DNA from: Adineta ricciae
Lineage: Eukaryota > Rotifera > Eurotatoria > Adinetida > Adinetidae
Direction of reading: 5' to 3'
Assembly: GCA_905250025.1 (NCBI GenBank)
Contig: CAJNOJ010000178.1
Span: 156,564 to 220,563 of the forward strand
DNA length: 64,000 nucleotides
Shown piece by piece: positions 2,637 through 39,546 of the stretch; the stretch's first letter is position 1, and each line of letters starts with the position of its first letter. The position numbers were made by a program, and so were the translations under genes. Below the pieces are notes generated by a model, which was given only the letters and a program-made list of their open reading frames with translations, was not told the origin of the DNA and made no database searches.

Positions 2637-4892
2637 TTATATTGATTGATGTTTTTCTTCCTTCTTGGAACATGTTACTGTTATTGATGAACCCAAGAAT
2701 TGTCCAGATGATGGTAAATCTATTGAAACATCTGTTGTATTATCCGATTGACAGATACAATTCGGTCCATAGCCAATACGATCGAGATTTATTGTTATTG
2801 AACTGTTGACATGTATTGGATGAGAAACAGTGATGGAAAAATCAGTTGAAGTTTCATTGAATAGATAAACACCAGAAGAAGAATTTAATCGAATGTTTAA
2901 TGTAAACAAAGAATTTTGACAGGAAAACTTTGTTGGAAGATCATTCCAGACGACAAACGATGCACGATGAAGTGTTGACCAGGCAATTCCATGAACAAGA
3001 GGATTTGTCGAAATACAAGTAAAGATTTGATCAGTTTTATAAAGTTCTATTCGAGTTAGTACAGATTCAAGATCAATATTTGGTAAAATCATATAATTAT
3101 AATCACGTATATATGGTCCCATTCCATGATCAATCCATACAGTCGCTGTACGTTTGGTCACTGTACCGTTATAAGGCCCAATTGTACTGTACGGTGCAGT
3201 TTTTGTACTAATCTCTGCGCCTATATGGGAATATAGACCTTGATTTTGAAATACATACGCGATTTGGCTTTCACCAATATGTATCCATTGAACATTAGTT
3301 GATTGATTTGAAGTATAGGGAAACGAATAATTCACTCCATCCATCAGAGTAACAATTCGTCCATCAAAAAATCCAACATTGACTTTTCCTGTTGAAACTG
3401 TTCGACTAGCTAATGTTGTCCATACAGTATTCGATGTTGTAAGAGTCAAATTACTTGCCAATGCAATGATCGCATCATCGTAAAAGTGCCACGATCTTTG
3501 TGCTGTAAGATTATGTGTCGCTGTATCCATCATTGTTAAACCATAACTTCCATCGCTGACTCCACCGACAAAACTTAATTTAATCCAGTTAAAACTTCCT
3601 TTTATACAAGGTTCAATGGGAATGTCGTGTTCAACTGTAATACCATTGATGGCTTGCCAATCAAATACAGGAAATATATGACGATAGACTATAGAGTCTG
3701 TTGTATAGAGATTTAAAACACCTTGGCCAAGATGTTCACCTTTTTGATTCTCCATATTTATGCATTCAGTTGGTGTTGTTCGGATTGATTGCATTTTAAT
3801 TGCACAGGTCCAATTTAAACGACGATGAACTTGATAATCAGATGTATAGAAGTGTTTATTACCGATTAGAGGAACAGCAGAAGGTTTCTTTTCAAGACGA
3901 TCGGCAAAATCAGTTAAATCTTTTTTTAAACTATCTATTTCAATTAAATCTCCTAATGATCGAATCCAATCGGGTTGCAATTCAAATTCAAACGTTTCAA
4001 AGTTATTTCCCGTTCGATCGATTGCACGTCCCTCTACTTGCCAATCCCAAACGTTGTCCATTATCATCCAAGCATCGCCTTCTATCAAAAATCTTGCGAA
4101 TATAATCATCTGTTCCTGATTGACTTCATACTTCGTATCTTTTGTACACAAAATAAATATTGTCATAGCTAATGCCCAATCTTGTCCATAAGATGCTGAT
4201 ACTAATTGTATACCATGAAAATGATATGACCAATCGTGTTGAATTCCTTGTCCACCTAATGGTAGAACAACAATATCTTTCCACATACGTGTAAAACCTT
4301 GTTCAAGACCAGTTCGATTGTTTGTTGCCAATGAGCGATATAATTCAATTTGAACCATCCAAATGAGATTTGCACCTGTACCTGGATCATGTTCCCACCA
4401 ATCCGAACGAAATGATATTTGAGTCATTTTTTCGATTTCATACGCAGTTGCATTCGAGCCTAACATTAATAATTGACCAGTGACTAACAATGGGATACCG
4501 ATTTGATTAAACCACCAGTTTGGATTTAAAAAATCGCGTGTTAGCCAAACATTTAAAGCGCAATGAGCACCACGGGATAGTCGAGGATCATTTTGTACAG
4601 TGGAACCAGGTACAGTCAACGCTTGAATCATAATATTTACTCGATTTAGATGCTCTTCAGTTGCCCAGACTGCTAAGGTTTTATCAGCATAATTGATATC
4701 TTCCCAATAACAAGAACTATTCATTTTTTCGTTGAAACTTATAGCAGATTGAACAACAGATGGAATTGTTTTATTCATTGGCCACAAAGTCAATTCCAGG
4801 ATACGCTGACGAATTATGGATATATCATCATTGTCAGATTGACATATTATCATCGAAAAACATAAGAACAAAGCAACTATTCTACAAAACAT
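2637..4892 (-). CDS. Secreted polysaccharide lyase family 8 (hyaluronate/chondroitin lyase-like)
   Basis: A single uninterrupted 751-residue frame for a glycosaminoglycan lyase that cleaves by beta-elimination. The N-terminus is a signal peptide (MFCRIVALFLCFSMIICQS). The PL8 alpha-toroid catalytic residues are recognisable: Asn175 in GTGANLIW, His226 in DWSYHFHG and Tyr235 in SASYG. The His-to-Tyr spacing is nine residues, as in streptococcal hyaluronate lyase. WWFNQIGIP (about 126-134) is the usual aromatic substrate-cleft segment, and GRAIDRTGN gives a conserved Arg. The second half (about 400-750) fits the beta-sandwich domains of PL8. PL8 is mainly bacterial and fungal; an intronless copy among intron-bearing animal genes suggests horizontal origin, which is an inference. 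The exact substrate (hyaluronan, chondroitin, xanthan) cannot be read from sequence. Confidence 0.9.
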   Translation of the reverse strand: MFCRIVALFLCFSMIICQSDNDDISIIRQRILELTLWPMNKTIPSVVQSAISFNEKMNSSCYWEDINYADKTLAVWATEEHLNRVNIMIQALTVPGSTVQNDPRLSRGAHCALNVWLTRDFLNPNWWFNQIGIPLLVTGQLLMLGSNATAYEIEKMTQISFRSDWWEHDPGTGANLIWMVQIELYRSLATNNRTGLEQGFTRMWKDIVVLPLGGQGIQHDWSYHFHGIQLVSASYGQDWALAMTIFILCTKDTKYEVNQEQMIIFARFLIEGDAWMIMDNVWDWQVEGRAIDRTGNNFETFEFELQPDWIRSLGDLIEIDSLKKDLTDFADRLEKKPSAVPLIGNKHFYTSDYQVHRRLNWTCAIKMQSIRTTPTECINMENQKGEHLGQGVLNLYTTDSIVYRHIFPVFDWQAINGITVEHDIPIEPCIKGSFNWIKLSFVGGVSDGSYGLTMMDTATHNLTAQRSWHFYDDAIIALASNLTLTTSNTVWTTLASRTVSTGKVNVGFFDGRIVTLMDGVNYSFPYTSNQSTNVQWIHIGESQIAYVFQNQGLYSHIGAEISTKTAPYSTIGPYNGTVTKRTATVWIDHGMGPYIRDYNYMILPNIDLESVLTRIELYKTDQIFTCISTNPLVHGIAWSTLHRASFVVWNDLPTKFSCQNSLFTLNIRLNSSSGVYLFNETSTDFSITVSHPIHVNSSITINLDRIGYGPNCICQSDNTTDVSIDLPSSGQFLGSSITVTCSKKEEKHQSI

Positions 4893-20792: not shown

Positions 20793-23492
20793 ATGCGAAT
20801 TATTGCTGTTTTAACCTTTACAATTTTTGTATATCTATTGCATAAAACTTCGTCAACTGATTATGACAGAATTCAATTAGCAGCAAATGATTATCTTTTT
20901 GTTTTTTATGTAACAAAATATGTTAATTCGGATGGTTTTATTCATTATCAATGCGCAATGTTAGGAAATCGAGTGTTTAAAGTAGATTTTGATTTTCAAT
21001 CTATTCACTCGGTATCCATTGGTCGTCGACAAAACCAATCTCAACTTTATTTTATCGTTTCTGGTAACACCAATAAGTCGAATTTCTATATGACCAAAAT
21101 TACCGTTCAATGTTATCAAGAAAACAGTACAGTGTTGCACAAAGAGACGGTGTTCTTTGAAAATCATTACATGTCATCTATGATTGTCAGTGTTGATCCT
21201 CATGGTCAATTTGCTGTTGGTGTTTCCAATACATCTCTTCTCTATTATAATTTGAATGATTTACAACATTTTTCGTATGATGTAACTTGGCCAGATTTGA
21301 AAGAATTTCTACCTTTATCAATTGATATAAGTGAGAATCGGATTTATATTGCAGGATATATTGAAATGAAACGTTTGGTTGAGAATATACGTGAAGATAT
21401 GATTTATATTCAGACGAGAATATATTTATTATCGATTGATGAAGAAAAACATCAAATTCAATTTTATGATCAATGGAAATTCAATGAATTCACCAGTAAT
21501 CTCATAATGAAATTGTCTCTTCGTGTTAATTTGAATAATGACCGTGTTTTACTTGGCATACCATCGATAAATACTGTCTATTCATTTATTACCAACAAAA
21601 CATCGAATCGTCTTATACCACTTAGTTCTAAAATGAAAAAGAAACTCTTTAGAATAATTACTGGATACGGATGGATTGTTGATTGGTTTCATGACAGTAA
21701 TAAAGCGATTATTGTGACTGTTGATTACGAAAGTAACATTATTAAAAATTCAAATCCTTATATTGAATATTATGATATATATGATGACGAAGTTTTCAAT
21801 GACAAAAGTATTCCATTCGCAGTATTTCCAACCATCGATCAAACCGATCACTACAGTCATGAATTTTCTAAATATCATCTGATTGTTTTAACAACAACAT
21901 CATCTATACTTTATGCAATGAATGACGATGAACATCTTTTGATTATTCCATCATCTAAACCAGGATATTTATCTGTTGATCAGGTTTTTGTAACTGAATA
22001 TATCACACATGGACATCGTCGACATATTTTCTTATCAAATAGTGCTCAATGTCCACTTCATACATACAAAAACGATACTGGACCGTGGCCATGTCGCAAA
22101 TGTCAAATGAATTCATCTCAATATGATGTTGATATGATATGTCCCGAATGTAATAATGAATTATTCTGTCCACTTGAATTTGCAACGTTTTCAGCGAATT
22201 TGTTTGATATTGAACAGTATTATGGTTATCCTGAAACACCAGAAATAGATGTTTTTAGTGATATTCTTATACGTAATATGTTTCGTACTAAATGTCTTCG
22301 AACATCGCCTTTTCTTATTATGATAATTACTTTGTTGATGATATTAATTCTATCAATAATTATCGGCTTTTTAAAATTCAGTAAACGATTAGCATCGAAA
22401 AACGAACCTTTCATAAAAGGTTTTCGATATCTTGATTTGATTAAACAAGGTCAATCATGGTTTGGAGGATTAGTTAGTATTGTATTGCTTGTACTGCTTG
22501 CATTTGCAATTAAATTTAGTTATTCTTATCATTATCTTTATCCAATTGAAAATCAACATTTACTCAATGAAAATTCTTGTTCAACAAATCTTCATTTGAA
22601 TGCAAAATTTGAAAGCAATCTTCAATATTTAACAAAACCATACGGACAATTTGAAGAGATTTTTCGTCTCTTAGATTCGCAAGAATTTTTAATGAACATC
22701 GAATTGATCAACACAACATTTCATTGTGGACAATTATTCATTAATTCTCATAATCCTGTGTTTTGTTATACACGTGAATTTAATCTATATGCATCGACTA
22801 ATTTATCATCACATAAAGTACCAATATCTTTAAAACTTCAAGGAAAAGGAATCATAGAAGCGATGCGTATTGGTTTTATTGGATCAGAAATTCATCAAAT
22901 GAATAATTACGTTCAAAAAGTGAATTTTTCCAAAGTATTTAATTATACAAATCGAACCATATCGATGCAAATGGTTCATTCGATTGATTTACAATTAACA
23001 AAGATAATTAATATCACCGAAGGTTTGACCGATTCAGATTTAACAATTTACAGCGGTTTATGGTCGATGATATTTCATTTTGATCTTGATCGATTATTTG
23101 TCGAAACACATCAAGAATTTGACAAAGATTCAACAAAAATATCATTGAAATTTTTTGAAACGTCATTTTTTATCCAAAATCGACAAAAACCCATTGCACG
23201 AAGTCCAGAGATTATTTTCAGTACAATTTTATTCATTTGTATGTGTTTGGATTTAGTCTGTACGATATTTCTTTTGATTAAATTATGGTTGAAACCAATT
23301 TTAAAACTTATGATTATCAAAGTATCTTCATCGAATTGTTGGTTTTATCAATTTATTGATGGAGATAAGTCAAACATTTCAATAGAAATGGAGAATTTGA
23401 AAACTGAAATCGACATTTTAAAGAAAACAATAAAAACATTAACTACGAATGAACCGGTTATCAGAAGATATAAGAGAAAAGTGTCTGTTTGA
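20793..23492 (+). CDS. Intronless multi-pass membrane protein with large ectodomain, unknown family
   Basis: 899 residues. A signal peptide (MRIIAVLTFTIFVYLLHKTSS) precedes about 400 residues rich in beta-strand-like repeats (for example IVSVDPHGQFAVGVSNTSLL and LSIDISENRIYIAGY), which look like propeller blades. A Cys-rich module follows at about 418-462, with repeated C-xx-C spacing (PCRKC, CPECNNELFCP). Hydrophobic helices sit near 510-530, 556-575 and 806-832, with another extracellular Cys-bearing region between the last two. The tail has a short coiled coil (MENLKTEIDILKKTIKTL). There are many N-glycosylation sequons. I do not recognise the family and propose no function. The long open frame, sequons and membrane segments make it a convincing gene. 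Confidence 0.82.
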   Translation: MRIIAVLTFTIFVYLLHKTSSTDYDRIQLAANDYLFVFYVTKYVNSDGFIHYQCAMLGNRVFKVDFDFQSIHSVSIGRRQNQSQLYFIVSGNTNKSNFYMTKITVQCYQENSTVLHKETVFFENHYMSSMIVSVDPHGQFAVGVSNTSLLYYNLNDLQHFSYDVTWPDLKEFLPLSIDISENRIYIAGYIEMKRLVENIREDMIYIQTRIYLLSIDEEKHQIQFYDQWKFNEFTSNLIMKLSLRVNLNNDRVLLGIPSINTVYSFITNKTSNRLIPLSSKMKKKLFRIITGYGWIVDWFHDSNKAIIVTVDYESNIIKNSNPYIEYYDIYDDEVFNDKSIPFAVFPTIDQTDHYSHEFSKYHLIVLTTTSSILYAMNDDEHLLIIPSSKPGYLSVDQVFVTEYITHGHRRHIFLSNSAQCPLHTYKNDTGPWPCRKCQMNSSQYDVDMICPECNNELFCPLEFATFSANLFDIEQYYGYPETPEIDVFSDILIRNMFRTKCLRTSPFLIMIITLLMILILSIIIGFLKFSKRLASKNEPFIKGFRYLDLIKQGQSWFGGLVSIVLLVLLAFAIKFSYSYHYLYPIENQHLLNENSCSTNLHLNAKFESNLQYLTKPYGQFEEIFRLLDSQEFLMNIELINTTFHCGQLFINSHNPVFCYTREFNLYASTNLSSHKVPISLKLQGKGIIEAMRIGFIGSEIHQMNNYVQKVNFSKVFNYTNRTISMQMVHSIDLQLTKIINITEGLTDSDLTIYSGLWSMIFHFDLDRLFVETHQEFDKDSTKISLKFFETSFFIQNRQKPIARSPEIIFSTILFICMCLDLVCTIFLLIKLWLKPILKLMIIKVSSSNCWFYQFIDGDKSNISIEMENLKTEIDILKKTIKTLTTNEPVIRRYKRKVSV

Positions 23493-27246: not shown

Positions 27247-28260
27247 ATGCGCTTTTATAACAAATTACAAACTCATTTTTTCTCGACTTTCGTACTCAGT
27301 TTATTATTTATGTTTACCCTGGGTTATTTCATAGGATCAAGAATATATTCTTTTGGAATAACTCCCAGAACATTATATTTACCATATCCTTCAAGCATAT
27401 CTGCTTCTCTCTCTCAAAATAATGTTATAATTAGTGTTTCTCTCAACATGCCTTTGAAAATTGTTTATCGATTCGCACGATCAGCTCGCAAAAGTTGTAA
27501 TAATTGTCATATAATCATATTTCTACATAGTAAAATAATTGCAGAAGAAAGTTTTCGTCAACTTGCTCTTTTCTATTCGATTATCTTTATTCCATATGAT
27601 ACATGGATATCTTCAGATTTAAATATTCATTTGTCTTCTATTCCAACTGTTTCATTACGATGGATTATTATAAGTCAATATTTAAAACGTTTAGATGATA
27701 TAAGATCTCCATACAAATATGTTTTCATATGTGATTCACGTGATGTTATTTTTCAACGAAATATTTTTGATTATGTTAATGAATATGAAGATGGTCTCTT
27801 TGTATTTCAAGAAACTACAAAAATGAATATAAGAAAATGTAGTTATAATTCGAAATGGATTAAAGATTGTTATGGTGAAACAGAACTTAATCTTATTGGA
27901 GATCATAAAATTATTTGTGCTGGAACAATTCTTGGTTCATGGAAAGCAATAATGAATTATTTATCAATAGTAGAACAAGTGACAAGTCAAAGATATCAAC
28001 AATGTAATGATCAAGGTATTCATAATCATATTGTTTATAGAGATAAAATCAATAATACGAAAATTCATATTATTTCACATGAACATGGTTTTGTTGGAAC
28101 ATTAGGATATTCAGCAACGTTTAAAAGAAATCAATTTGGACTTATTCTTAATGAAAATGAACAAGTTTATGCTGTTATTCATCAATTTGATCGAAATAAA
28201 CAAATAACTGAGCAATTGGAAATTCAATATCAACTATGGACTGATTATAAACAAGATTAA
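27247..28260 (+). CDS. Type II membrane glycosyltransferase-like protein
   Basis: Intronless 337-residue protein. A single N-terminal membrane anchor (FFSTFVLSLLFMFTLGYFIG, about 11-30) suggests a Golgi lumenal enzyme. YKYVFICDSRDVIFQ (about 156-170) has a D-x-x-D element (Asp163/Asp166) after a hydrophobic strand, as in metal-dependent GT-A glycosyltransferases. Later segments fit the acceptor side of such folds: ICAGTILGSWKAIMNYL, with the small-residue turn typical after the DxD strand, and QCNDQGIHNHIVY. I cannot assign a CAZy family or substrate. ATG 27247 is chosen because it starts directly before the anchor. Confidence 0.66.
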   Translation: MRFYNKLQTHFFSTFVLSLLFMFTLGYFIGSRIYSFGITPRTLYLPYPSSISASLSQNNVIISVSLNMPLKIVYRFARSARKSCNNCHIIIFLHSKIIAEESFRQLALFYSIIFIPYDTWISSDLNIHLSSIPTVSLRWIIISQYLKRLDDIRSPYKYVFICDSRDVIFQRNIFDYVNEYEDGLFVFQETTKMNIRKCSYNSKWIKDCYGETELNLIGDHKIICAGTILGSWKAIMNYLSIVEQVTSQRYQQCNDQGIHNHIVYRDKINNTKIHIISHEHGFVGTLGYSATFKRNQFGLILNENEQVYAVIHQFDRNKQITEQLEIQYQLWTDYKQD

Positions 28261-32921: not shown

Positions 32922-35067
32922 ATGGGTTCATTATTGTCAAAATTTCACAGTTACGTTCATCAAGATGTTTTCTTAGTTCCTTCGCATAATAATGTTTTGC
33001 TTATTATTATTTTATTTCTTGGAGTGATCACTTCATTGTTATATTTGAAATTTAATTGGAAGAAATTTATCTACATTCATATCTATAAACGTCTAATGGG
33101 TCCGAAGTGGCTAGCTTCTAATAAAGGTCCATTTGCATCGTACTATCGAAATATTCTATGCAATATGTACGAGATCAATAACAAACAATTAGCAACAATT
33201 CTTCAGAATAATTATTCATCTACTTTCTCACGAGATCATTCGATTTCATATATTCGTTCTCATTGTCCACATTCTCCTTTGCCTGCCGATGAAGGTTATA
33301 CAACAATTGATGAGTTTCGTTCAAAAGTTCCGTTGACAACGTATGATGATTATCGCAACTATATTGATCGAATGGTTGAGGAAGGAGAAAAAAACTTATT
33401 GTCTACTGATAAAATCGTTTATTTTAATACTAGTTCGGGAACTACAGGAAAGATTAAACTGATTCCAATGACAATGACAATGTTAAAAGAAACAACGAAC
33501 GCGTTTAATATTGGACTCTCTTGCATGTGGAGATCATTACCATCCTCATCCTTTCCCTATGCTAAACAACGATATTTTCAGTTATCGAGTGGAAGGAACG
33601 AATCAATGTATGACAAAACGAAAAGTGGCATTCCTCTCGGCCCTTTCAGTCAATGTTTTTCTGCAATTTCAACATTTTCCAAATATAAACCAATAACAGC
33701 TGCTGCCAATGTCATAGGACTCGATCTTGTCGAAGCAATTACAGACTTCGAGACGAATATATTTGTTCAACTTGTTTTCGCCATGACCATTTCCGATATA
33801 TATTCTTATTCAGTAACGTTTCCTCCAGCATTTATTCATACCATAAAAATGATCGAAGATTATTATGAAGAAATCAATCGATGTATCACTTCGATTGACT
33901 TCAACGATAGTTCCCTTGTTCGAAATCATATACACGATGTCAAACTTGTAACTGATTTAAATCAAGCATTGAATGAAATTATCATTGAATATGGAGGACG
34001 AAAGTATCAAACAAAAAGAACATATCATATTCAACAAGAATGTTGTAGAAAAGATGTTCCTGGTCTTCTTCATCGTTTATGGCCATCTCTGTTATTTGCA
34101 TCTACTGCGATCGGCAGTAACTATTCCATGTATAAAGAACAAATACAATTTTATTGTGGAAATAAACTTCTTTTAAGCAACTTTACTTGTTACCTTGCAA
34201 GCGAAGGATGTTTTGGATTCACTGCAAGTAATCATACGGACGAATATTTTCTCTTACCAACCTATGCATTCTTTGAATTCATCAAAGAAGAAGATATACC
34301 TAAAGTATGCCATCCATAACTCCTTCATAATTTCTTTAATATTGTTTATTTTAATGTGTTGTTTTGTTGAGGAACAACCGAAGACTCTTCTTATGTCGGA
34401 AATTGAGCCTGGAAATCGATATGAAATGGTTTGTACAACTCCTGCAGGACTTATTCGATATCGAATGGGTGATGTGATTACTTGTACACGATTTCTTACT
34501 CACAGTAATGATCTAGTCGCATTACCAGCTGAACCAAAGGAAATACCTCGAATTCCTCTTATTTCAATCGCATGTCGTATTGGATGTTTAGACATATATG
34601 GAGAGAAAACTAGTGAACGACATGTACTGAATGCTATAATGAAAGTAATTCAACAATGGAAAGAACAAGGATTTCATGTTGGTCTTCATGATTTTACTTC
34701 ATATACAAAGATTGAAGGTCTTTCGGTCTGTTATGTCGTATTTATCGAACTGATAGACGAAAAATGTCATGATAAAAATTGTACAGTCGTTGATAATCAA
34801 TTTAAAATGCTCCAAGATATTGTTAGTAACGAAGTTGATCGGCAGCTTTGTATAGAAAATCAAGTGTATGAAAGCTATCGACAGATTGGGAAACTTGGTC
34901 CACTTATGTGTATTCTTGTTCAATATGGAACGTTCTCTACTTTTTTAAATAAGGAATTGATCACTGATCAAATTAGTCCTGTTCAAATCAAACCTCGTCG
35001 ATTTCTGAGAAATGATAAACATATTCAATTCTTCTATGAACATCAAATTATAGATTGTACTGTTTAA
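32922..35067 (+). CDS. GH3-family acyl-adenylate amide synthetase, membrane-anchored
   Basis: 692 residues from exons 32922-34304 and 34372-35067 (67-base intron). GH3 enzymes adenylate a carboxylic acid and transfer it to an amino acid or amine (plant auxin/jasmonate conjugation; a divergent GHDC protein in vertebrates). The three nucleotide motifs are recognisable: YFNTSSGTTGKIKLIP (167-182), LASEGCFGF (425-433, in place of the usual Y-x-ASEG), and IRYRMGDV (489-496), with the C-terminal cap after it. RVGCLD-like SIACRIGCLDIYGEKTSE matches the late family segment. A hydrophobic helix at about 23-42 precedes the domain, so it is probably tethered to a membrane. The acyl substrate is unknown. 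It is followed by the fusion gene in the same orientation, 853 bases downstream. Confidence 0.88.
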
Positions 35068-35915: not shown

Positions 35916-35917
35916 AG
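35916..35917 (+). promoter_or_regulatory. Candidate spliced-leader acceptor before the fusion gene
   Basis: TTTTTCTTTGTAG ends three bases before the start ATG, a strong 3' splice site with no visible partner exon. Confidence 0.5.
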
Positions 35918-35920
35918 ATA

Positions 35921-38900
35921 ATGGATTGTTCCTATAAAAGTTATGATTATCATCCGAAGAGATTATTGGAAATCGAAAAGACAATGGTTGACGATGGTTA
36001 TGTCCGAATTCAATTTTCCGATGAATATCTGCCACATGATGATGATTTTCCAAGAAATATGGAGAAATTCTTCATAAATATCATTGAAAAACTTAGTGGA
36101 AAATGTTTAACTCACAATGCAGAACAAAATTCATTTGTTTGGCATGTTCAACCAATGGAAACGGATTCCATTGATGAAAAGAGACATCTTGCTCGATCTC
36201 AAACTGACGATGAATTCTCATTTCATACAGATTGTTCATATGAAATGAATCCACCGGAATACATGGCACTATTTGTTCTCGAACAGGATCAACTTGGAGG
36301 AGGAAAATTAGAAATTATTCAATTGTCCGATATACTCAAATCTTTGTCAATGAAAACTCAAGAGAAATTATTGAATGAAAACTTTCAGATAAATATTCCG
36401 TTAGAATTTCGTAAATCAATCGATATTGATCATATCAGTGCACCGATTTTATTGGCTGAAGACAAAATTCGATATCGATATGATATTTTATCTGAGAAGA
36501 ATGGTGAAGAATTAAATGAATTGAATTTAATTATTCAACAAATGAAACGATTTCAACCAGAATTGACGAAATTTACAATGATTATTTTGAATAATCAAAA
36601 GTTTCTTCATGGAAGAACGAAAATTCTCGATCATCGACGTCATTTACTTCGCATACGATTCAATCGAACATGTCCATATGATGTTCATTCCGTTTATGAC
36701 AAAGACAAACTATTGCCTGAATATTTATCATTCTCAAACGATTTTTATGATTATTTACAATCTCAACATGAAATTTTATATAAAATTTTGCTCTCAGTTG
36801 TTAAACATTATGATCAACCGACAAATTTAGGTGAAAAAATTCGACAAACATTTCAATTTGACTTGAAAGTCGATCAAATCATCAAACAATTGAATAACTA
36901 TCGACCAAATTATCAAATTGGTTCTTATCGACCTGATTTGATGTTTAGTCAAGGAAATTTATTTGAAATCAATAGCAAATATTCCTTTCAACCAAAAATA
37001 TGCGAAATTAATGCAAGATTTCCATTCAATGGATATTTTCTCTCAGCTGCTCTATGTTCAACTGATCGACAAAATCGATATTCGCAGAAATCTTCGAAAA
37101 TGATTGAAACTATAATCGAATCAGCAAAATTTGATTTGACAAAGCGAATGTTTATTGTGAAATTACAAGAACATGGTTATGATATTCATCTATTTCAACA
37201 ATATTGGACGAATAAATCATCTCAACCATGTTTAGTTGTCGATCCGAATGATTTAAAAATTAAAAATGAGAAATTAATTGATCAAAAATCAAATATTTTC
37301 ATAGAACAATGTATTCTTGAATTACATCAAAATGAAATATTAAATTTATCGGATGAAATTCTCCAATATTTCATTGAGAACAAACAAATCAATTATATCA
37401 ATGATTTGCGAACAATTTTTCTTTTACATGACAAACGTTTATTTTCACTTTTATCAAATCAATCATTTCTTTATGTTTTATTGAACACACAAGTTGAAAA
37501 GTTCGTACAATTCATTCCAAAAACATTCATCATTAACAAATTACCCAATTATCTCAAAGATTCGATTGTTAACAACAAACAACATTGGTGTATTAAACCA
37601 AATTCAGCTGGAAAAGGAGAAAATATCACTATAGGTAAGTAACCATTGTTAAGTTTATCATAAAATAAAGTTTTTTAAATAGGTACTGATGTATCAATTG
37701 ATGAATGGTCGAGACAATTATTGAATTCTAATCATAATCAATGGATTATTCAAGAATATATCGATTATGTTCCATATAAATCAATGAATCTATGTGGAAT
37801 GTTATTTTGTTTTAATGAACATTGTTTTAATATGGGAATTATTCGAATGGCTCAGAAGAAAATTGTAAATATCTCTCGTGGAGGTCATTATATTCGTCCA
37901 TATGTTCATCAACAATCAATTCATTCGATGGAAAACGGAAATATTTTAACAAAAGAAATTTTACATGAACAATTAAACAAAATGAAACTCTTTGATAATC
38001 AATGGAATCGATCAGTTTATATTTCATCATCTGGTGGAAGTGGAGGAAAACAATTATATTTTTCAAGTGATATTCAACAAAATCTTCTTCAACGACAAAT
38101 TCTTGTCAAGATGATGCTTGATGAAGAGATCATTTCTGATCGAGATATTTGTTTAAATATTTTTCAAACAGGTCATGTTTATCGATCGTTGGAAATTTTC
38201 AATGATTTTTGTACAATGGCTAATTGTACATCGATTCCAATGGGTGGAAATACAAGTGATGAAGATATTTTAAAGATAATTGAATATTTTAAACCAAATA
38301 TAATTATGGGTACACCACATCGTCTAATGCAATTGGCATTTTATTTTGAAAAACAAGAAAAGAAAGAAATTTATTTTGAAAAAATTTATTTTGCTTGTGA
38401 AGCAATCGATAAAGTAAAACAAGATTATTTCAAACGAATATTTCATTGTTCGACACTTCTTGGTTTCTATGGTTCAGCTGAAACAGGTGTTTATGCATGT
38501 CAATCACCAAAATATTCTTCAACAAAGATTTATCTTTATCCAAAAGAATTAGTTCAAATTGAAATTTTCAATTCGAAAATTATTGTCACAAATCTTATTC
38601 GTAAACGTAATCAATTGTTTCGCTTTGATTCCGGTGATCTTGGACGAATTCTTCCAACAGATATTAATAGTAAATATGGTTTAATTGAAGTGTTTCGTAG
38701 TCAAAGATTGATTATGATTGGTGAAGATGCACTTTCTAAATCAGATATTGAAGAAACAATGAAACAAATTGATTTGATTGAATGGCAATTAATTATTGAT
38801 TATGTTTCATCGTCGAAAACCGATCAAATCCTTCTTTTATTTCGATATGTTAAATCTGAAACAACTTCGAATGAAAATTCCGAAATGATTTTAAAGAATT

Positions 38901-39040
38901 ATTTGCAAAATTTTTTTGATAAAAAATTAACAAGTCTTTCGGAAAATTTGATTCTACAATTTGAATTAATTCAATTCAATCAATTAATACGAAATAAAAC
39001 ATCAAATAAATTATTGAAAATTATTGATAAACGTTTCTAA
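35921..39040 (+). CDS. Three-domain fusion: 2OG-Fe(II) oxygenase, ATP-grasp ligase, PaaK/LuxE-like adenylase
   Basis: 1,023 residues from exons 35921-37634 and 37683-39040 (48-base intron inside the ATP-grasp loop). Domain 1 (about 1-250) resembles VioC/AsnO-type TauD-family hydroxylases: FHTDCSY supplies Fe ligands His102 and Asp104, NNQKFLHGR supplies His230, and HLLRIRF supplies the 2-oxoglutarate Arg (about 244). Domain 2 (about 310-680) looks ATP-grasp: KICEINARFPFNGY, the phosphate loop WCIKPNSAGKGENITIG (556-572), and WIIQEYIDYVPY (592 onward). Domain 3 (about 680-1023) is an adenylate-forming enzyme of phenylacetate-CoA ligase/LuxE type: VYISSSGGSGGK (683-694), FYGSAETG (833-840), FRFDSGDLGR (884-893). 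No carrier-protein domain is seen. It could hydroxylate an amino acid and join activated acids or amines. Product unknown; the domain calls are from motifs. Confidence 0.82.
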
Positions 39041-39546
39041 ATGATTTCTTTAATAAAGTATTCACTTTTGTTTTGTTTTATTGTGAATAGAATTCGAATA
39101 TGAAGTTTTATTCTTAACAATTTTCATTGTCAGATAAACGTAGTAGTGTCAAAATCGAAAGTTGAATTCGGTTTTTCAATTATCCTAATGGTAGCGTCAA
39201 GGATGAGTTCACCTTGAGTGAAAATTCTTGCACTATCGCTAAATTATCCAGATATACAAGAAATCAGATGTTCTTCTCAACTATAAAACTGCATCATGAT
39301 TTTATCAAAAGAATCATGGAATTGTTTCATTTATCGTTTAAAAACATGTAAACTATATAATCTTGCTTATTGGAAAAGTATATTTTGTGAAGAACTGATC
39401 TATTTCAAAATGTATTTGATGAATTTCACTAAAAATTCTTCAAACGAGAAAAGGTCATATTATAGATGATCATCTTGAGTATATTTAACACTCGTACCTG
39501 CTAAACGATTGAAATATTCTTATATGAATAGCATTTTATTTATTAA
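39041..39546. other. Convergent 3' spacer
   Basis: Between the fusion stop and the PLC stop. Nothing recognisable besides the poly(A) signals. Confidence 0.5.
39052..39057 (+). terminator. Poly(A) signal of the fusion gene
   Basis: AATAAA only 11 bases after the stop codon, implying a very short 3' UTR. The convergent PLC gene has TTTATT at 39535-39540, also close to its stop. Confidence 0.5.

Follow-up and report, generated by a model that had tools for sequence, protein, structure and literature searches.

A gene, probably spliced, for three enzymes in one chain

We analysed a window of 64,000 nucleotides from the bdelloid rotifer Adineta ricciae (GenBank assembly GCA_905250025.1, contig CAJNOJ010000178.1, positions 156,564 to 220,563 of the forward strand; positions below are those of the window), which holds a gene whose product combines, in this order, a TauD-type Fe(II)/2-oxoglutarate oxygenase, an ATP-grasp ligase and a PaaK-type adenylase of the ANL family (Table 1). 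Two exons, 35921-37634 and 37683-39040 on the forward strand, join in frame to give 1,023 codons and a stop codon across a GT-AG intron of 48 nucleotides, whereas the first frame, read through without splicing, meets a stop at 37642 within the intron; the two exons are probably spliced. The intron lies at codon 572, just past the phosphate-loop segment of the ATP-grasp domain and not within its GKG.

When scored against profiles from which labelled bdelloid rows had been left out, the protein reached 188 bits for the oxygenase (residues 43-249), 275 bits for the ATP-grasp domain (281-648) and 254 bits for the adenylase (629-1022), compared with best values of 4.1, 5.3 and 2.4 bits among 200 shuffles and the reversed sequence, a control run with the bacterial oxygenase, non-bdelloid ATP-grasp and bacterial adenylase models. 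The full set of models represented 11 bacterial oxygenases, 12 oxygenases of fused relatives, 5 bacterial adenylases, 3 triple-fusion adenylases, and non-bdelloid and fungal ATP-grasp proteins; the other bdelloid-free models gave 202 bits (oxygenases of fused relatives), 158 bits (fungal ATP-grasp) and 126 bits (triple-fusion adenylases). In a fold comparison using a predicted model of middling quality, which covers mainly residues 87-253, 259-636 and 695-1002, the best solved relative of domain 2 was Cp1B of the fungal E-64 pathway (see below), with 25% identity in the structural alignment, and the nearest solved structures to domain 3, in which the ANL fold and motifs are present, were PaaK-type acyl-CoA (coenzyme A) ligases. 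An earlier reading of the DNA, made from the letters and open frames alone (the sequence-only reading), had described three enzymes in one spliced chain of 1,023 residues, named their types and order, and placed HTD, H230, R244, SSSGGSGGK, FYGSAETG and FDSGDLG; the exon join, the domain searches and the folds bear this out. It had also held that the intron splits the phosphate loop; the loop is real, but the intron follows it.

By analogy with the TauD family, we take the H and D of HTD to be two iron ligands, and, from the TauD/clavaminate synthase family, H230 to be the third and R244 the 2-oxoglutarate-binding Arg. SSSGGSGGK is presumably the ATP-binding loop of the ANL domain, and SNKLLK, judging from ANL enzymes, the place of the catalytic lysine loop. 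The residues corresponding to R139, D141, E163 and N165 of Cp1B are all kept in 54 of the 56 aligned rows, Cp1B counted in; the exceptions, L013 and L015, both from Lachnospiraceae, have T in place of N165. Pfam searches with the two exon pieces (E up to 10) and with 28 aligned relatives (E up to 1; 20 families in the list) gave no match to a carrier or condensation family. An ordinary nonribosomal peptide synthetase (NRPS) was rejected, since no peptide carrier or condensation domains were found. A protein database assigns many of these ATP-grasp proteins to PF28486, a family that hmmscan with the Pfam copy used here did not report.

Table 1. Features of the trifunctional gene in the window
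Feature	Position	Strand	Observation
Whole gene, start to stop codon, 1,023 residues spliced	35921..39040	+	relatives cover 98-100% of query
Domain 1, TauD-type Fe(II)/2-oxoglutarate oxygenase, residues 1-250	35921..36670	+	
HTD, 102-104	36224..36232	+	invariant in alignment with 11 bacterial oxygenases
H230 to R244	36608..36652	+	both invariant in the same alignment
Domain 2, Cp1B-like ATP-grasp ligase, residues 264-648, intron-interrupted	36710..37912	+	
R337 and D339 (Cp1B R139 and D141)	36929..36937	+	profile and multiple alignment
E362 and N364 (Cp1B E163 and N165)	37004..37012	+	profile and multiple alignment
Phosphate loop SAGKGENI, 562-569	37604..37627	+	aligned to SGKGD of Cp1B
GT-AG intron, 48 nucleotides	37635..37682	+	13 of 28 aligned records end or have an insertion there
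Domain 3, PaaK-type ANL enzyme, likely amide-bond synthetase, residues 655-1023	37931..39037	+	
SSSGGSGGK, 686-694	38024..38050	+	
FYGSAETG, 833-840	38465..38488	+	
FDSGDLG, 886-892	38624..38644	+	
SNKLLK, 1012-1017	39002..39019	+	close to C-terminus
AATAAA, possible polyadenylation signal	39052..39057	+	11 bases 3' of stop codon

Distribution and paralogues in bdelloids

The full-length search, which scored the 7,988 candidates that had most words in common with the query, returned 29 matches, 13 of which span 98-100% of its length, with identities of 50-92%; a profile search scored 7,991. All named full-length relatives are bdelloid (Adineta and Rotaria, 53-92% identity), the nearest being from A. 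ricciae itself (92%), A. vaga (78%) and Rotaria sordida (70%). Organism names are attached to 16 of the 29 matches, namely Adineta, Rotaria and Didymodactylos, all Bdelloidea, a placement that rests on one species per genus. In the alignment of 28 matches (P0010 was left out), 11 records end 1 to 18 residues past Gly572, the intron place, and P0005 and P0017 have insertions there; 13 records in all mark the same codon, which would fit a single old intron common to them. In P0015, one uninterrupted frame of 1,016 residues runs along a contig of 3,150 nucleotides, either a cDNA or an intronless gene. A quick tree divides the Rotaria genes into two lineages, which differ at pocket residues 374, 420, 624 and 635 (LYII and near versus FFPI and near). 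P0008 (Rotaria sp. Silwood1) is missing the HTD residues and has Tyr in place of the distal His, but keeps the residues that we checked in its ATP-grasp and adenylase domains; it reflects either a gap in the gene model or a copy without the oxygenase step.

Bacterial gene sets and fusions in other organisms

Genome contigs were scanned with two peptide patterns, both within the ATP-grasp domain, which returned 26 loci; we divided these into L001-L012 and L013-L026 after the list had been seen. An oxygenase gene adjoins the ATP-grasp gene in 11 of the first 12, the exception being L009, where the ATP-grasp gene reaches the contig end, and an adenylase gene is present in seven (L001, L002, L004-L008). 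L009 and L011 end at contig ends; L003, L010 and L012 continue with no adenylase. Among L013-L026, none of the 14 has an oxygenase; in L015 a weak match to the adenylase lies at a distance of about 4.7 kb. All three types occur in the order ATP-grasp, adenylase, oxygenase in L001, L002, L007 and L008, whereas the oxygenase comes first in L004, L005 and L006, whose gene order equals the domain order of the bdelloid chain. Unlike in that chain, the bacterial genes are separate, or just the ATP-grasp and adenylase parts are fused, as in L005, L006 and the protein P0082. Each domain has its match in these seven loci; the adenylase of L005 and L006 is distant. P0090, an ATP-grasp protein from Microcoleus, clusters in the ATP-grasp tree with L001 and other sequences.

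MatE-type transporter genes lie beside the cassettes of L005 (3800-5119; a gammaproteobacterial bin) and L006 (9545-10471; Candidatus Aquarickettsia rohweri), which suggests export of the product. L010, from Rickettsiella, has the oxygenase and ATP-grasp genes, and no adenylase was found at the locus. L014 (7734-11571; an Ignavibacteriales bin) has three tandem ATP-grasp genes of the wider family.

Domain models were also run on the profile-search matches (P0082-P0166 tabulated). The triple combination pointed out by the sequence-only reading recurs in the bdelloid relatives in the same order, but also elsewhere in another: like the bdelloid proteins, P0099 of the chytrid Obelidium mucronatum (1,157 residues), P0102 and P0103 carry all three domains in a single chain, arranged however as ATP-grasp, oxygenase, adenylase. 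Among the 7,988 full-length and 7,991 profile candidates scored, the bdelloid order was seen in no named organism outside the bdelloids. In the ATP-grasp and adenylase trees these three proteins stand on long branches apart from the bdelloids. Since both domain orders and tree positions differ, the bdelloid and chytrid triple fusions probably arose independently. Several proteins, ascomycete ones among them, are two-domain chains of ATP-grasp and oxygenase; P0120 of Botrytis galanthina has them in this order and P0128 of Penicillium macrosclerotiorum (record marked partial) in the reverse, with no adenylase domain found in either chain. That these enzymes have been fused to each other repeatedly speaks strongly for their working in one pathway, and the differing orders make it a natural experiment in how pathways become single proteins.

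Origin of the bdelloid gene

A careful ATP-grasp tree was computed from 46 of 55 rows (L012, L013, L014, L015, P0108, P0109, P0091, P0083 and P0087 were dropped). The bdelloids form one group (100/100) and stand beside proteobacterial sequences, among them those of Vibrio, Aquarickettsia and Rickettsiella, at a support of 91/77 that lies below the 95/80 mark of the tool; in this proteobacterial group the oxygenase gene comes first where found. Forcing bdelloids and ascomycetes together was not rejected (p-AU 0.069). The adenylase tree places the bdelloids beside a Vibrio gene (92, long branch), with the L005 and L006 adenylases far off. The oxygenase tree, made by a quick method, gives no supported bacterial sister and does not repeat the proteobacterial tie: the bdelloids stand by a Tenacibaculum TauD and P0077 (P0076/P0077; support 68), and P0065, P0073 and P0074 fall within the bdelloid branch. 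From these sequence comparisons we infer that the gene was acquired horizontally, probably from bacteria; the likeliest history is that of a bacterial operon fused later, and a fungal origin is disfavoured.

A predicted synthase of an E-64-like inhibitor

E-64 is a small molecule that disables cysteine proteases; it serves as a standard research inhibitor, and drug candidates build on it. Its biosynthetic enzymes were not described until 2025, in fungi, where Cp1A, Cp1B and Cp1D of the Aspergillus cassette cp1/cp2 suffice (PMC12568646): Cp1A turns fumarate into its epoxide, Cp1B links epoxysuccinate to an L-amino acid, and Cp1D, an ANL amide-bond synthetase, attaches the amine. MfaA, a cyanobacterial oxygenase, yields the same trans-epoxysuccinate as Cp1A (PMC12568646). 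The bdelloid chain resembles this cassette in its three enzyme types and its lack of carrier domains, and its middle domain is homologous to Cp1B with the four tested catalytic residues kept; in contrast to the single chain, the fungal cassette consists of separate proteins, together with a decarboxylase, Cp1C, that is dispensable there (PMC12568646). The sequence-only reading had spoken of hydroxylation and ligation without carriers as a new assembly logic. The absence of carrier domains stands, but the same carrier-free sequence of oxygenase, ATP-grasp and ANL enzymes is already published for E-64, and because of this analogy the oxygenase is more likely a fumarate epoxidase than a plain hydroxylase.

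The protein has the three folds with their catalytic residues in place, that is, a Cp1B-like ATP-grasp domain with the four residues and an oxygenase with HxD...H and Arg; each domain is kin to relatives from cassettes or fusions (these stood in for Cp1A, MfaA and Cp1D in the comparison of domains 1 and 3), and the three functions are encoded together in one open spliced frame. We propose, with a probability of about 0.6, that the gene encodes a trifunctional, carrier-free synthase of an epoxysuccinyl-amino acid-amine inhibitor of cysteine proteases, and is thus a single-gene counterpart of the E-64 cassette with its three genes (Cp1A-Cp1B-Cp1D type). Domain 1 would use Fe(II), O2 and 2-oxoglutarate to convert fumarate into trans-epoxysuccinate; domain 2 would phosphorylate one carboxylate with ATP and couple it to a hydrophobic L-amino acid; domain 3, likely an amide-bond synthetase, would adenylate the amino acid carboxylate and couple it to an amine, for example a polyamine. 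The order of reactions would then be that of the domains, and the presumed product a covalent blocker of cysteine proteases, which we hypothesize is used for defence, e.g. against parasites, predators or microbes.

The same carrier-free trifunctional logic might instead hydroxylate or desaturate another acid and thus yield a pseudotripeptide without the epoxysuccinyl warhead. TauD-type enzymes act on many substrates, domain 1 has weak matches to clavaminate synthase (E 4e-4), glutarate dioxygenase (7e-4) and asparagine oxygenase (0.0025), and the amino acid pocket varies among bdelloid paralogues. The quick oxygenase tree also counts in favour of another product, as it does not group the bdelloids with the proteobacterial cassettes. 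Moreover, malic and fumaric acid versions of the fungal product form without Cp1A (PMC12568646). However, related oxygenases accompany this ATP-grasp enzyme in bacteria and fungi, and the cassette oxygenases Cp1A and MfaA both yield trans-epoxysuccinate (PMC12568646). Domain 1 also outscores three other TauD proteins with the bacterial and fused-relative oxygenase models (188 and 202 bits, versus 126 and 118 for the Tenacibaculum TauD, 130 and 118 for P0077, and 96 and 90 for P0080). We regard a different product as possible but rather unlikely.

It is quite improbable that domain 3 acts as a CoA ligase or uses a different acceptor, in which case the chain would release an acyl-CoA or thioester and not the final amide; although its closest solved structures are acyl-CoA ligases, genes of this adenylase family accompany the Cp1B-like gene at 7 of 12 bacterial loci, the family is part of the triple fusions, and Cp1D is an amide-bond synthetase (PMC12568646). 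We would be most surprised if the chain were a relic or a gene-prediction artefact, with separate transcripts or a decaying copy. Paralogue P0008 without its HTD residues, several partial records and a second AATAAA inside the intron might suggest this, but they are set against 13 nearly full-length relatives, retained catalytic residues, the uninterrupted frame of P0015 and an intron place marked in 13 of 28 records.

Returning to the predicted epoxysuccinyl synthase, we give even odds to a broader reading, in which one bdelloid polypeptide makes an E-64-like irreversible inhibitor of cysteine proteases by handing the intermediate from one active site to the next, the three sites following the order of the reactions, the same trio was fused independently in bdelloids and chytrids, and related gene sets of intracellular bacteria (Aquarickettsia, Rickettsiella) may act on host cathepsins. 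If this is true, bdelloids would be the first animals shown to make such an inhibitor by a single polypeptide, and the chain would provide a specific chemical prediction and a ready-made single-chain biocatalyst.

As far as our searches go, it is new that an animal has these enzymes in a single chain and that such a chain occurs across bdelloids; no bdelloid or animal E-64-type pathway was found in the literature, judged by listings and the beginnings of abstracts, with few subscription papers and preprints covered, and PMC12568646 was the sole paper on this biosynthesis among those listed. Nowell et al. report that bdelloids respond to a fungal pathogen by raising biosynthetic genes that they have acquired (PMC11258130). 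The NRPS and polyketide synthase (PKS) genes of bdelloids likewise bring biosynthesis of a non-animal type to the same animal group, but are carrier-based, unlike the trifunctional chain. To pass the three-domain NRPS/PKS screen of that study, a protein had to contain PP-binding and condensation domains; the trifunctional protein, in which neither carrier nor condensation domains were found, would fail it. The main text of the study does not contain the terms ATP-grasp, TauD, E-64 or protease inhibitor. Our proposal, if true, would extend the acquired small-molecule genes of bdelloids beyond NRPS/PKS.

Setting in the window

The trifunctional gene is located among animal genes, since other frames of the window match a glutamate receptor-type channel, a receptor ligand-binding region, a neurotransmitter-gated channel, a plexin domain, a sodium:neurotransmitter symporter and TRPM2, and a PI-PLC with C2 frame follows directly downstream. 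Exon 1 had no match among plasmid records, and two open frames, 20793-23492 (+, 899 residues) and 27247-28260 (+, 337 residues), had no Pfam match at 1e-4. The AG at 35916-35917, which closes a pyrimidine-rich stretch and lies 3 bases 5' of the ATG, could be an acceptor for a leader or for an intron of the 5' untranslated region. Directly upstream on the same strand (32922-35067), two overlapping open reading frames contain the N-terminal, middle and C-terminal parts of a GH3-family protein; GH3 enzymes are likewise adenylating amide synthetases, and a functional link to the trifunctional gene is conceivable. A polysaccharide lyase family 8 frame of 751 residues (2637-4892, reverse strand) is, as a guess, a candidate for another horizontally acquired gene.
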